64,000 nucleotides of DNA from Thermoanaerobacter ethanolicus JW 200 (GTDB lineage: Bacteria; Bacillota; Thermoanaerobacteria; Thermoanaerobacterales; Thermoanaerobacteraceae). The notes under the pieces were generated by a model. The model did no database searches, had not been told where the DNA came from, and saw only the letters and a list, made by a program, of their open reading frames with translations. Below, piece by piece: positions 9,162 through 36,728 of the stretch. A program made the position numbers and the translations under genes. The stretch lies in NCBI RefSeq assembly GCF_003722315.1, contig NZ_CP033580.1, forward strand, positions 681,001 through 745,000. The letters run 5' to 3'. Positions within the stretch are counted from its first letter, which is position 1, and every line of letters starts with the position of its first letter.

Positions 9162-10271
9162 ATGAACGCTTTTATAGAAGGTATATTAAATCTTACACCA
9201 GGTCATATTATAATGTTTATCATTGGAGGTATCCTTATATATCTTGCGATAAAAAAAGAATACGAGCCAATGTTACTTTTGCCTATAGGGTTTGGCATAA
9301 TACTAGCCAATATTCCGCTTTCATCTGCTATAGGTGAAAATGGTTTTCTTACAATTCTATACAACGCTGGAATAAGTACAGAACTTTTTCCTATTCTCAT
9401 TTTTATTGCAGTTGGTGCAATGGTAGATTTTTCACCACTTCTTAAGCAACCGTTAATGATATTTTTTGGCGCAGCAGCGCAGTTAGGAATATTTTTAACT
9501 ATAATTTTTGCGCATATGCTGGGCTTTAATTTAAAAGAAGCAGTTGCTATAGGCATAATTGGCGCTGCAGATGGCCCTACATCTATTTATGTAGCTAATT
9601 TGTTTGCACCAAAGCTTTTGGGTCCTATATCAGTTGCAGCTTATTCGTATATGGCATTAGTTCCAATAATCCAGCCCTTTGTGATAAAAATGCTTACCAG
9701 TGAAGAAGAACGAAAAATTAGAATGGATTTGCGCATGAATGAAGTTTCAAAAACAGCTAAAATACTTTTTCCAATAGCAGTGACATTTGTTGCAGGAATT
9801 TTAGTACCAACTAGTGTTCCTCTTGTAGGTTCTTTGATGTTTGGCAACCTCATAAGAGAAAGTGGGGTAGTAGAACGGCTTTCAAAAGCTGCACAAAATG
9901 AACTTGCCAATCTTGTGACACTTTTACTTGGGATAACAATAGGTTCTACTATGACTGCCGACAAATTTTTGACACCTACAACTCTTTTGATATTTGGAAT
10001 GGGACTTATAGCATTTATATTTGATACAGCAGGAGGAGTATTGTTTGCAAAGTTTTTAAATTTGTTTTTAAAAAATAAAGTCAATCCAATGGTAGGAGCT
10101 GCTGGAATATCAGCTTTTCCAATGTCGTCTCGTGTGATACAGAAAATGGCCCAAAAAGAAGACCCTACAAATTTTATTTTAATGCAGGCTGTAGGAGCAA
10201 ATGTTGCAGGTCAGTTAGGTTCTATCATAGCAGGAGGTATTGTAATAGCACTTGTAAGTTCTATTATGTAA
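9162..10271 (+). CDS. oadB: Stand-alone OadB-type sodium pump membrane subunit
   Basis: A 369-residue polytopic protein of the beta-subunit family of Na+-pumping decarboxylases (OadB/MmdB/GcdB). Family hallmarks are GIIGAADGPTSIYVANLFAPKLLGPI, with the Asp essential for Na+ coupling in OadB, and the C-terminal repeat containing GAAGISAFPMSSRVIQKMAQKEDP. AAGGGAG precedes the ATG. No carboxyltransferase/biotin alpha subunit occurs in the window. The gene sits directly behind a Mn2+ riboswitch, and a tiny OadG-like gene lies beyond a transposon insertion. The family call is firm; a role in cation export, rather than decarboxylation, is my inference from the switch. Confidence 0.88.
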   Translation: MNAFIEGILNLTPGHIIMFIIGGILIYLAIKKEYEPMLLLPIGFGIILANIPLSSAIGENGFLTILYNAGISTELFPILIFIAVGAMVDFSPLLKQPLMIFFGAAAQLGIFLTIIFAHMLGFNLKEAVAIGIIGAADGPTSIYVANLFAPKLLGPISVAAYSYMALVPIIQPFVIKMLTSEEERKIRMDLRMNEVSKTAKILFPIAVTFVAGILVPTSVPLVGSLMFGNLIRESGVVERLSKAAQNELANLVTLLLGITIGSTMTADKFLTPTTLLIFGMGLIAFIFDTAGGVLFAKFLNLFLKNKVNPMVGAAGISAFPMSSRVIQKMAQKEDPTNFILMQAVGANVAGQLGSIIAGGIVIALVSSIM

Positions 10272-10272
10272 T
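10260..10272. repeat. Left copy of direct repeat flanking the transposon
   Basis: TCTATTATGTAAT occurs here and again at 11914-11926, on either side of the insertion. It overlaps the last codons and stop of oadB. At least the 10-base ATTATGTAAT core is probably a target-site duplication. Confidence 0.65.
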
Positions 10273-11916
10273 AGGGATGTGCAAAATTAATTAAAATAAT
10301 CATAATCAAAAACCAAAATATGTATTACATACAATATATAGTAATCAACACTGACAATCAAACATAAAGGAAGTGGTAAGGGAAAAGAAAAGACAAAAAG
10401 AGGAGCTAAAAAAGGGCATAAATATCCTGTAGAAGTCAAATGTTAAAAAATGGCATGAAATAGATTCAATAAAAATTAGGCCGATTGCATCAAAGCAACA
10501 AGAGATCTAAACTCATCATATTTGCCCAATTTAATAGCTACAATAGCGACAGTAAGCAAAGTAATATGGCCAAAAGTATTAAGGTTGCTCACAGAATTAA
10601 TATTTCTAACATAAGCCTTTTCAAAATCCAGAGCTTTAAAGCGGGAATTATATCTTTCTGATTCAATTCTCAATTTGTAGACGGCCTTAAAATATAGGGA
10701 GTCTCTATTAATAGAGGACCTATAATCAGAAGATATAATAGCATACTTAGTACAGCCTCTATGCTTTTTGCCATTAAAATATTTAGGATGATTTATAGGG
10801 CAGGCAGAATCATCCTTAGAATTACAGAACTTGCAAACAAATTTTTGCTTAATAAAACCATCAAAATATTGCTTGCCATCTTTAAGCATTTTAATACCCG
10901 CTTCACAGACCATATAACCATCATCAGTCAGAGGGGGATTTTTAGAATTACGCTTGTTAAGAGGAATAAAGCAATGACCGTGGAGAATATTTCTAACATA
11001 ATTATAAAGTTTCTTAACATCATAGCCTTTATCAGCAATAAAATTAACATACTTAAGGTTAAACCACTTATTAGTCTTCTCAAGCAAAGATAAAGCGGCT
11101 TCAAAATCAGGGGCATCAGCGGGGGTAGTAGTTTCAGCGATGGGTAAACCAGAGATAGCATCAACAATAATGTGATTTTTATAGCCCCAATAAAACTTAT
11201 AGCGTTTATTAGAAGAATCGTTAGAAGCAGAATAAACGCCTAATTTACAATCCTTATCTGACTTAGGCTGATTATCTTTAGAGAATTTATTTTTAGAAAA
11301 AGACTTAGGGTTATTTAACTTAGTGTTAGCTTTAATAGGGGTAGAATCCATGGAAATAAACTCACCGGAGATAATACCCATATTTTTGAGGATATTGACC
11401 TGATTTTGAAAAATAGAGGTCAAATAATCATGAGAGAAGTCATTAATAAAACGGCGAAAAGTCCAATAAGAAGGAAGAGGTTTAGAAATGTCGAAGCCAC
11501 AAAGATGAGCAATGATAAGATTATTGCGGAGATAATCTAAAAGGTCAGAAATTGTGCCGAATCTTTCAGCTTTCATGACAATAAAAGCTCTAAAAAGTGC
11601 ATGGTGAGAATAACCCTTACGGCCAGGACTAGAGGAAGGGAATTCAGGTATTGAAGACAGGTCAAGATTTTCAAACATAGAAGAATAGAAATCAATTTTA
11701 GACTGAGAGGTAAAGAGTTCAGGTATATTTAAAAGCAATTGAAGCTGGTACATGTAGAATTTCCTCCTTCTTAAAAAATTTTTTATAGTGTATATATAAT
11801 AATTCGACAAATGGGAGGGGAAATCCTACATAAAAGATAAAAAATTCAAGAGTGATAGGAAAAAAGTATGTCTGTAGAATGGCTTAAATTAAGGCTTCTG
11901 AATTTTGCACAAGTCT
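10273..11916 (-). mobile_element. DDE transposon (IS1182/IS5-superfamily type) inserted after oadB
   Basis: The element of about 1.64 kb carries one transposase on the minus strand. Its ends are AGGGATGTGCAAAATT (10273-10288) and the complement of AGACTTGTGCAAAATT (11901-11916), inverted repeats matching at 13 of 16 positions with an 11-base perfect core TGTGCAAAATT. Direct repeats of 10-13 bases flank it. It separates oadB from the small OadG-like gene. About 190 bases inside the left end (10289-10475) carry no convincing gene. Confidence 0.8.
10476..11753 (-). CDS. DDE transposase with N-terminal DUF772-like domain
   Basis: A 425-residue transposase, apparently intact. The N-terminal helical domain (SSPGRKGYSHHALFRAFIVM, then a YWTFRRFINDF segment) is of the InsH/DUF772 type. 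The catalytic core shows FISMDSTPIKANT (first Asp), VNFIADKGYD (second Asp) and RIESERYNSRFK (Glu). I start at ATG 11753 because AAGGAGG lies upstream; the frame is open further to 11810. Family assignment to IS1182 or a related IS5-superfamily group is approximate. Confidence 0.85.
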   Translation of the reverse strand: MYQLQLLLNIPELFTSQSKIDFYSSMFENLDLSSIPEFPSSSPGRKGYSHHALFRAFIVMKAERFGTISDLLDYLRNNLIIAHLCGFDISKPLPSYWTFRRFINDFSHDYLTSIFQNQVNILKNMGIISGEFISMDSTPIKANTKLNNPKSFSKNKFSKDNQPKSDKDCKLGVYSASNDSSNKRYKFYWGYKNHIIVDAISGLPIAETTTPADAPDFEAALSLLEKTNKWFNLKYVNFIADKGYDVKKLYNYVRNILHGHCFIPLNKRNSKNPPLTDDGYMVCEAGIKMLKDGKQYFDGFIKQKFVCKFCNSKDDSACPINHPKYFNGKKHRGCTKYAIISSDYRSSINRDSLYFKAVYKLRIESERYNSRFKALDFEKAYVRNINSVSNLNTFGHITLLTVAIVAIKLGKYDEFRSLVALMQSA

Positions 11917-11944
11917 ATTATGTAATTTTAAAGAGGTGAACAAA

Positions 11945-12058: not shown

Positions 12059-12104
12059 ATAAGCAATAAAAATTTTGTTCGTGTAAAATTTAAGTAGGGA
12101 ATGC

Positions 12105-12375
12105 TGCTGACATTTTGCACAAGAGAAGCGACTTGACAGCCCGGCACTCAACCGAAAATGTTAAAAAAGGAGAATAAGAGAAAGGACCAGCCCGTTCAGT
12201 TGAGTGCCGGGAAACTTAGCGAGACCGAAAGACGGAAGCGGGGCCGAAGCCAAGAATGGCGGAGGCGGGACATGAGGCAAGGATGCCACCTGACGTAGGA
12301 ACCCCGCTGGAGTCTGAGGTCGAGCGTTAGTTTAGCCTGCGATATCACTGGAGCGAACTGTGCAAAATGTCAGCA
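12105..12375. repeat. Structured GC-rich repeat element, copy 1 (candidate non-coding RNA)
   Basis: This 271-base block is GC-rich against an AT-rich background. Perfect 17-base inverted repeats, TGCTGACATTTTGCACA (12105-12121) and its complement (12359-12375), close it. Inside are a 13-bp helix (12140-12152 with 12199-12211), AGCGGGG/CCCCGCT (12237-12243 with 12302-12308) and the hairpin GGCA-AGGA-TGCC (12276-12287). The conserved core 12241-12269 recurs in copy 2 at 20334-20362, and several helices covary between copies. No coding frame is convincing. It fills the gap between the OadG-like gene and trmL. I do not recognise the family. Confidence 0.7.
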
Positions 12376-12488
12376 TATTATTCACCTACTAATTTTTTAC
12401 ACACACAAAACTTTTGCTAATTTTTTAATTATATACTCCTTGTGATATAATAAAATTGTAAAGTTGTTACTGCATGGAGGTTTTGGTG

Positions 12489-19406: not shown

Positions 19407-19814
19407 TTGAAGTGGACTGAATCTTTATCAGTTGGAAATGAACTCATTGACAGTCAACATAAAGAGTTAATAAAAAAAGTAAATGATGTTCTGGAAGCTT
19501 GCAATCAGAAAAAAGGAAAAGAAAAGATTGAAGAAGTGATGAAATTTTTAAAAGATTATACTATAGAACATTTTAGCGCTGAAGAAGACTTCATGAAAAA
19601 ATATCAATACCCTTCCTATGAAGAACACAAAAAAATTCATGAAGATTTCATTAAAAAAGTAGAGGAATTGGACGAAAAAATAAAAAAAGAAGGCATAAAC
19701 TTATCAATCATAATGCTTGTTAATAAAACGTTGGTGGATTGGCTTATAAATCACATAAGCAAAGAGGACAAAAAGGTAGGAGAACACATAAGAAAAGCAA
19801 AGGGGGATTTTTAA
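19407..19814 (+). CDS. Bacteriohemerythrin, first of tandem pair
   Basis: A 135-residue four-helix O2-binding protein. The di-iron ligands of the family are visible: NELIDSQHKELIKKVND (His), TIEHFSAEEDFMKKYQYPSYEEHKKIHEDF (His/Glu/His/His) and WLINHISKEDKK (His and Asp). The start is TTG 19407 with GGGAGGAG upstream. Functions proposed for the family are O2 scavenging, storage or delivery, which would suit an anaerobe. A paralog follows one base later. Confidence 0.93.
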   Translation: MKWTESLSVGNELIDSQHKELIKKVNDVLEACNQKKGKEKIEEVMKFLKDYTIEHFSAEEDFMKKYQYPSYEEHKKIHEDFIKKVEELDEKIKKEGINLSIIMLVNKTLVDWLINHISKEDKKVGEHIRKAKGDF

Positions 19815-19815
19815 A

Positions 19816-20214
19816 ATGAAATGGACAGAGTCTTTGTCTGTAGGAAATGATTATATTGATGAGCAGCACAAAGAGTGGATAAGGAGAATTAATGACCTTT
19901 TAGAGTCATACAATCAAAAAAGAGGCAAGGAAAAAGTTGAGGAAGCAATGGAATTTGTAAAAGAGTACACTGTAACGCATTTTAGCGCCGAACAAGAGCT
20001 GATGAAAAAGTATAAATATCCTGAGTATGAAATACATAAACAAATTCATGACAATTTTATTAAAGAAGTTAATGAACTGGATGAAAAAATAAAAAAAGAA
20101 GGTCCTACGCTCACTAATTTGATGACTGTTAATAGGACTTTAGTAGATTGGGTGCTAAATCACATAAGCAAAGTAGATAAAAAACTAGGAGAGTACATAA
20201 AAAGTCAAATGTAA
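19816..20214 (+). CDS. Bacteriohemerythrin, second of tandem pair
   Basis: A 132-residue paralog of the preceding gene, sharing the starts KWTESLSVGN and all iron ligands (DEQHKEWI, THFSAEQELMKKYKYP, EIHKQIHDNF, WVLNHISKVDKK). AAAGGGGGA inside the end of the first gene serves as ribosome binding site, and the genes are one base apart. A recent tandem duplication is the simplest explanation. Confidence 0.93.
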   Translation: MKWTESLSVGNDYIDEQHKEWIRRINDLLESYNQKRGKEKVEEAMEFVKEYTVTHFSAEQELMKKYKYPEYEIHKQIHDNFIKEVNELDEKIKKEGPTLTNLMTVNRTLVDWVLNHISKVDKKLGEYIKSQM

Positions 20215-20218
20215 TTAA

Positions 20219-20236
20219 GCCTGTAAATGCAGGCTA
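20219..20236 (+). terminator. Hairpin after hemerythrin genes
   Basis: AGCCTG-TAAATG-CAGGCT forms a 6-bp hairpin just after the stop. It lacks a T run here. A near copy with ATTTTTT lies beyond the structured element at 20501-20524, which suggests the element split or duplicated a terminator. Confidence 0.45.
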
Positions 20237-20258
20237 CAGACTGTAGACAAACTTTCGA

Positions 20259-20470
20259 AAATAGGATATTTTGCATAAGGAACGACTTGTGACAAAGCGG
20301 CAACAAAACTTAGCAAGACCGAGGGTGAAGGCAGGGCCGAAGCCAAGGATGGCGGAGGCGGGCACTAAGACAAGGATGTCGAATGTGCCCGGTACCCTGC
20401 CGGAGCCCGAAGGTCGAGTTTAGTTTTGTCGCTTTGGAACATCGGAGTGACGATGCAAAATATCCTATTT
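20259..20470. repeat. Structured GC-rich repeat element, copy 2 (candidate non-coding RNA)
   Basis: A 212-base relative of the element at 12105-12375. Its 18-base closing arms (AAATAGGATATTTTGCAT at 20259-20276 and the complement at 20453-20470) differ in sequence from those of copy 1 yet still pair perfectly. Further helices: CAAAGCG/CGCTTTG (20293-20299 with 20430-20436), GGCAGGG/CCCTGCC (20330-20336 with 20395-20401), GGGCAC/GTGCCC (20360-20365 with 20385-20390) and the hairpin GACA-AGGA-TGTC (20369-20380). The single-stranded AGGA loop is identical in both copies. It lacks the extra 13-bp hairpin of copy 1. Non-coding. Confidence 0.7.
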
Positions 20471-20500
20471 AAAAATTTTTGACTTTGTCAATAAGCTGGA

Positions 20501-20524
20501 GCCTGTAAATACAGGCTATTTTTT
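20501..20524 (+). terminator. Terminator-like hairpin beyond structured element
   Basis: GCCTGTA-AAT-ACAGGC followed by TATTTTTT. Probably the original terminator of the hemerythrin operon. Confidence 0.65.
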
Positions 20525-36653: not shown

Positions 36654-36728
36654 TTTTATCCCCCTATCAACTTAAGCTTACTTTCATTATATCACATCTC
36701 ATAAAAATTTCATTTGTCAACAAACTAA

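Follow-up and report, generated by a model that had tools for sequence, protein, structure and literature searches.

The window analysed here, a 64,000-nucleotide stretch of Thermoanaerobacter ethanolicus JW 200 DNA (contig NZ_CP033580.1, positions 681,001 to 745,000), contains two structured folds, copy 1 and copy 2, each of which lies within a short element bounded by transposon-type ends (Table 1). Immediately upstream of copy 2 are two tandem bacteriohemerythrin genes. The insertion sequence (IS) near copy 1 encodes a 444-aa transposase that scores 113 bits as IS1182-like, below the cut-off of 270; the end region of this IS has at least 40 matches in the home genome, and an apparent direct repeat with a palindrome within is found at both of its ends. 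Rfam yields just one match at gathering level in the whole window, a Na+ riboswitch aptamer (RF03071, 58 bits). Farther along, a solo right end beside a GC-rich hairpin is probably what is left of an IS1182-type element that has been lost.

Table 1. Features of the two copies and their surroundings, in window coordinates.
Feature	Position	Strand	Remark
IS near copy 1	about 10263-11926		TCTATTATGTAAT at both ends
444-aa transposase gene of this IS	10476-11810	-	
Copy 1, left target duplication AAAATTTT	12069-12076		empty-site comparison
Copy 1, whole non-autonomous element	about 12077-12406	+	core in type-b ends; inverted repeat and empty site
Copy 1, left type-b end GTGTAAAATTTAAGTAGG	12081-12098		
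Copy 1, structured fold	12105-12375	+	closed by perfect 17-bp stem
Copy 1, closing stem TGCTGACATTTTGCACA / TGTGCAAAATGTCAGCA	12105-12121 / 12359-12375		17 bp, perfect
Copy 1, optional hairpin module	12140-12211	+	13-bp arms
Copy 1, arms of module CCCGGCACTCAAC / GTTGAGTGCCGGG	12140-12152 / 12199-12211		paired with each other
Copy 1, hairpin 1 GCCAAGAATGGC	12249-12260	+	GGA lost, reads GAA (AGAA)
Copy 1, hairpin 2 GGCAAGGATGCC	12276-12287	+	CsrA-type GGA loop
Copy 1, right type-b end CCTACTAATTTTTTACAC	12385-12402		
Copy 1, right target duplication AAAACTTT	12407-12414		empty-site comparison
Two bacteriohemerythrin genes	19407-20214		tandem
Copy 2, left duplicated terminator hairpin AGCCTGTAAATGCAGGCTA	20218-20236		single at empty sites
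Copy 2, IS1182-type non-autonomous element	20237-20498	+	262 bp; ends shared with resident IS
Copy 2, left end CAGACTGTAGACAAA	20237-20251		
Copy 2, promoter-like site TAGACA-17-TATTTT at left end	20244-20272	+	weak: 4 sites found, 1.3 expected
Copy 2, structured fold	20259-20470	+	closed by 18-bp stem
Copy 2, closing stem AAATAGGATATTTTGCAT / ATGCAAAATATCCTATTT	20259-20276 / 20453-20470		18 bp
Copy 2, match to RF01731	20286-20443		
Copy 2, hairpin 1 GCCAAGGATGGC	20342-20353	+	
Copy 2, hairpin 2 GACAAGGATGTC	20369-20380	+	includes ACAAGGAUGU
Copy 2, right end TTTGTCAATAAGCTG	20484-20498		
Copy 2, right terminator hairpin AGCCTGTAAATACAGGCTA	20500-20518		T-run follows
Na+ riboswitch aptamer RF03071	22437-22491	-	
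Solo right end TTTGTCAACAAACTA	36713-36727	+	

When the minimum free energy of each fold was compared with that of 200 dinucleotide shuffles, none of the shuffles was equally stable (z-scores of −6.9 and −12.8 for copies 1 and 2, respectively). An earlier note on this DNA had described the two folds from the letters alone, and we recovered its coordinates, its perfectly paired closing stems, the internal pairs that it named in both copies and the extra 13-bp hairpin of copy 1. Its picture of two dispersed copies was right as to the repeat being multicopy and wrong as to the number. The window contains the core GGNCGAAGCCAAGNATGGCGGAGGCGGG exactly twice, and window shuffles do not contain it; allowing up to three mismatches gives 30 matches in the home genome (2.91 Mb), where a reversed-pattern control found none, and three loci with a more diverged core (L032, L034 and L068) bring the total to at least 33 copies. 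A search of 84,980 species genomes for exact matches to the core as it occurs in Thermoanaerobacter returned records of that genus, T. wiegelii Rt8.B1 among them, one Clostridia MAG and no others.

Several variants were seen among the copies. About one third of the home-genome copies carry the optional hairpin module, whose 13-bp arms flank a loop of ∼45 nt; this loop occurs in both orientations among copies (copy 1, L024, L015, L026 and, in G018, L196), as if inverting, and the variant hairpin CCTGACGTAGG is present only in copies that have the module. A 130-bp deletion derivative (L043, G000:C1:2485948-2486077) is without the RNA core and keeps both ends and two flanking hairpins. A matching left end was also found on one viral contig (L315, IMG/VR contig IMGVR_UViG_2606217763_000002, 9327-9368), a possible route by which the element spreads.

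When copies are placed side by side, they begin with CAGACTGTAGACAAA and end with TTTGTCAACAAACTG, and an identical hairpin lies just outside both ends. The home genome also contains eight autonomous 1.56-kb IS copies with ends CAGACTGTTGACAAA...TTTGTCAACAAACTG, again between duplicated hairpins, and the ∼500-aa transposase of this IS belongs to the IS1182 family, scoring 490 bits with NF033551 (cut-off 270), and also matches PF13751 and PF05598. The ends of this resident IS are found on copy 2 and on 27 other home-genome copies. Because only the outer ∼15 bp are common to the small element and the 1.56-kb IS, the small element is unlike a product of internal deletion; as judged from sequence, the transposon ends enclose a structured core that is unrelated to the IS. 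The weak promoter-like site of copy 2 lies where the IS has its strong tnp promoter and has the same spacing.

Of the 84 copies with both ends in the home genome and related genomes of the genus, 67 are flanked flush by a duplicated hairpin 17-40 bp long. As a control, left and right flanks from different copies were paired, and a flush hairpin was obtained in 9 of 2000 cases. The site orthologous to that of copy 2 has one hairpin and no element in four genomes (G021, G017, G019 and G024), and in G021 the left and right flanks overlap by 18 bp. At the same site in G018 (L206) and G025 (G025:C5:148457-148759) the element is present in the opposite orientation, reflecting either independent insertion into one terminator or inversion between the flanking hairpins. 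Variable-length palindromic duplications recall IS30/IS1630-like elements; such an element was ruled out by the assignment of the transposase to the IS1182 family. By simple ORF calls, 25 of the 26 both-ended copies in the home genome sit 3′ of at least one gene. The gene context of these 26 copies was tandem sense for 11, tandem antisense for 9, convergent for 5 and divergent for 1, which shows no orientation bias relative to host genes in the home genome (11 sense versus 9 antisense). We rejected a per-copy benefit from read-through sense expression because of this lack of bias.

The ends of copy 1 are not IS1182-type, although its core is the same as that of copy 2. Its target duplication is ∼8 bp; the site is empty in G017 and G018, where the flanks overlap by 8 bp, and G020 and G025 have a deletion remnant there. 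A full-length relative with identical ends was found in G018 (L196). A search of the home genome found no transposase matching the ends of copy 1, and IS256 is unsupported as their owner, since the IS256-family copies of the home genome have other ends. The earlier suggestion that the repeat is mobile or multicopy is borne out. We conclude that the copies are almost certainly non-autonomous transposons (MITEs); for copy 2 and its kin this identity is firmly established, and for copy 1 it has good support.

The repeat had previously been taken as unrecognised. This no longer holds, because copy 2 matches the Rfam family TwoAYGGAY (RF01731) over the full 168-position model (31.2 bits, E 0.003) and relatives from the same order pass the cut-off. 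Copy 1 gave no match to RF01731, the best home-genome copy scored 40.1 bits, and the gathering threshold of 43 bits was not reached by the window copies or by any scored home-genome copy. Two genomes of the same order had 29 (G036) and 3 (G035) matches, most of them above the gathering score. On the strength of a full-model match below 43 bits together with these same-order relatives above it, we class the window folds, by sequence and predicted structure, as TwoAYGGAY relatives that fall below the threshold. The family's pair of hairpins, set on a shared stem and ending in A-Y-GGA-Y loops, is present, some copies having A or G at the Y position. In a phylum survey that scored only six candidates per genome, RF01731 matches were obtained in 40 of 398 genomes and in 32 of 266 genera, at least two copies being present in 28 of the 40 matching genomes; 14 control genomes gave no RF01731 match. 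Group I or group II intron or riboswitch identity was rejected, as the copies had no such Rfam match. TwoAYGGAY is a candidate RNA described in 2010 from human gut, gamma-Proteobacteria and Clostridiales (PMC2864571) and later proposed, on account of its loops, as a clostridial CsrA-binding sRNA (PMC4333381).

Beyond the genus, both IS1182-type ends were found on 8 of 54 TwoAYGGAY loci from 30 genomes, compared with 0 of 52 control placements. The eight loci belong to genomes of four other families (G067, G153, G193 and G286), and hairpin duplication is plain at those of G067 and G153. The copies in G036 have a third kind of end and a short direct duplication; a simple pattern located both ends in 4 of 23 copies, 3 of these 4 having a clean duplication. 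The same core was therefore found with at least three kinds of ends. Because IS1182-type ends occur in only 4 of the 30 distant genomes, we do not claim that every TwoAYGGAY RNA is transposon-borne.

To what extent the fold is under selection can be judged from the changes among copies. Across families, 110 cells of the two GGA hairpins changed on both sides compared with 31 in shuffles, and 94% of the GGA-hairpin cells were paired compared with 24-57% in slid controls. In the Thermoanaerobacter family, compensatory changes were present in 28 of 75 pairs, compared with 13 in shuffles. Variants found in a single copy did not avoid pairs (58 in 152 paired columns, 29 in 74 unpaired columns), whereas variants found in at least two copies did (41 in 152 and 47 in 74, respectively); the Fisher p-value for this contrast, 0.009, is approximate because the copies are related. 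Private G-U and A-C changes were equally frequent (25 versus 26), which argues that fixed copies are under no strand-specific constraint; the G-U to A-C ratios among small sets of shared changes (9:1 and 9:6) are suggestive only. In 29 of 30 genomes, the sense strand gives a better fold than the complementary strand does. Since pairing is kept between lineages whereas any one fixed copy decays at paired and unpaired sites alike, the target of selection seems to be propagation, and we infer that the fold is important during the spread of the element and not, later on, at each site. The proposal of a selected fold is consequently upheld by covariation across lineages far beyond that of controls and fails for single fixed copies, which drift neutrally, so that a selected fold is a property of the propagating lineage and not of each copy. 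The earlier note would have read drift without covariation or transcription as a sign of a dead MITE: the drift of single copies was found, and so was covariation.

The loop sequence is A-N-GGA, in which N varies freely from copy to copy; the GGA columns are without shared variants in the genus, and 73 of 84 copies retain two CANGGANG loops. Of the invariant AGGA loop reported earlier, the GGA stands; the second base is free, and one hairpin of copy 1 reads AGAA. The GGA loops are conserved on one strand across 21 families, and hairpin 2 of copy 2 contains ACAAGGAUGU, the core of the CsrA SELEX consensus RUACARGGAUGU (PMC7652899). Of the 40 genomes with TwoAYGGAY, 39 have a csrA gene, compared with 246 of 358 others (p-value of 2e-5, uncorrected for ancestry or lifestyle), a co-occurrence that may stem from ancestry or from a motile lifestyle. 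These features, the stronger folding of the sense strand and the promoter-like site in the left end all point towards an RNA that would bind CsrA. An RNA function of the core is, overall, a hypothesis of moderate strength; that the core is an RNA that binds CsrA is a tentative proposal, which we rate at somewhat less than probable.

The explanation that we favour is that of a MITE whose cargo would be a TwoAYGGAY-type RNA with putative CsrA sites, selected in propagation; taken as a whole, its prospects of being correct are evenly balanced. According to this explanation, the IS1182 transposase would move in trans those copies that have its ends, cutting at the base of a terminator hairpin such that the whole hairpin is duplicated and the host gene is spared. 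The core would be transcribed from the left end or through read-through, the RNA would present two hairpins whose ANGGA loops resemble CsrA-binding sites and would bind CsrA, and the core would be selected during propagation owing to this RNA action.

The lack of both an orientation bias and a strand-specific constraint in fixed copies means that two other explanations stay live. The fold might act as DNA, a rod-like palindrome forming a hairpin or cruciform that joins the ends or aids the transposase, with the RNA being incidental. Such a role would leave unexplained both why the GGA loops of one strand are conserved in 21 families and why csrA co-occurs, and it fits poorly with a sense strand that outfolds its complement and with an autonomous IS that is mobile without this core. 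We consider it unlikely, even though it agrees with structural constraint seen only in propagating lineages, with copies that lie in either orientation, with the equality of private G-U and A-C changes and with a target site that is itself palindromic. Alternatively, a host TwoAYGGAY gene could have gained transposon ends and given rise, in the manner of a SINE, to dispersed copies that are dead, in which case selection would act on the source gene and not on mobility. Fixed copies that drift neutrally while lineages keep the fold, and a core with at least three kinds of ends, are consistent with this origin; however, an unsystematic look met no conserved single-copy syntenic gene, and several species lack an element at the copy-2 site, making this origin improbable in our view. 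The earlier note had also pointed to HEARO/IscB-associated RNAs, which are likewise structured, multicopy and mobile. This link did not survive an Rfam search, in which HEARO (RF02033) matched neither the window nor either copy, whether the gathering cut-off or E≤5 was applied; the ends belong to an IS1182-family IS, the partner is a DDE transposase of the IS1182 family and insertion is through hairpin duplication, and a guide RNA of the HEARO type is thus extremely improbable.

Returning to the MITE with an RNA cargo, a broader form of this explanation is that unrelated transposases of several kinds have carried one structured RNA core with two CsrA-type hairpins, a CsrA decoy, across the clostridia, inserting it in most cases into terminators, and that the core is selected during propagation. 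We regard this broader form as possible but doubtful. If it is true, the reading of TwoAYGGAY would shift from a host sRNA to a selfish element. TwoAYGGAY has been listed since 2010 without an assigned function, and a location in transposons alters the meaning of its conservation and poses a testable question, namely why a mobile element carries RNA hairpins of a protein-binding type.

CsrB/RsmZ-type sRNAs sequester CsrA via GGA in hairpin loops. The core described here is similar in that its predicted hairpins carry GGA in loops like those to which CsrA binds, and differs in having two such sites rather than many and in occupying multicopy mobile loci. BOX and RUP of pneumococcus are structured MITEs, that is, short, non-coding, multicopy and foldable sequences moved in trans. 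The Thermoanaerobacter elements share the first four of these properties, and their mobilisation in trans is inferred; unlike BOX and RUP, they have a core related to a named Rfam family, conserved loops of a protein-binding type and several kinds of ends. A literature search for an IS1182-derived MITE, or for a Thermoanaerobacter MITE with this core, yielded no relevant paper among those listed. The similarity to TwoAYGGAY itself extends to the overall architecture, the two GGA-loop hairpins and the full-length model match, although the window copies score under the gathering cut-off; the TwoAYGGAY-type RNA is found here inside transposable elements, a context of which the portions of PMC2864571 and PMC4333381 available to us make no mention. 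Relatives within the IS1182 family, including IS1272 and TnSha1, are known to insert into terminator hairpins (PMC4923244, PMC5678879), as do the elements described here, whose partner transposase is of the same family. In IS1272/TnSha1, part of the hairpin is reported to be removed, with no duplication (PMC4923244, PMC5678879). In contrast to this replacement mode, the target choice documented here duplicates the whole terminator hairpin at any length (17-40 bp), and the mobile unit is non-coding.
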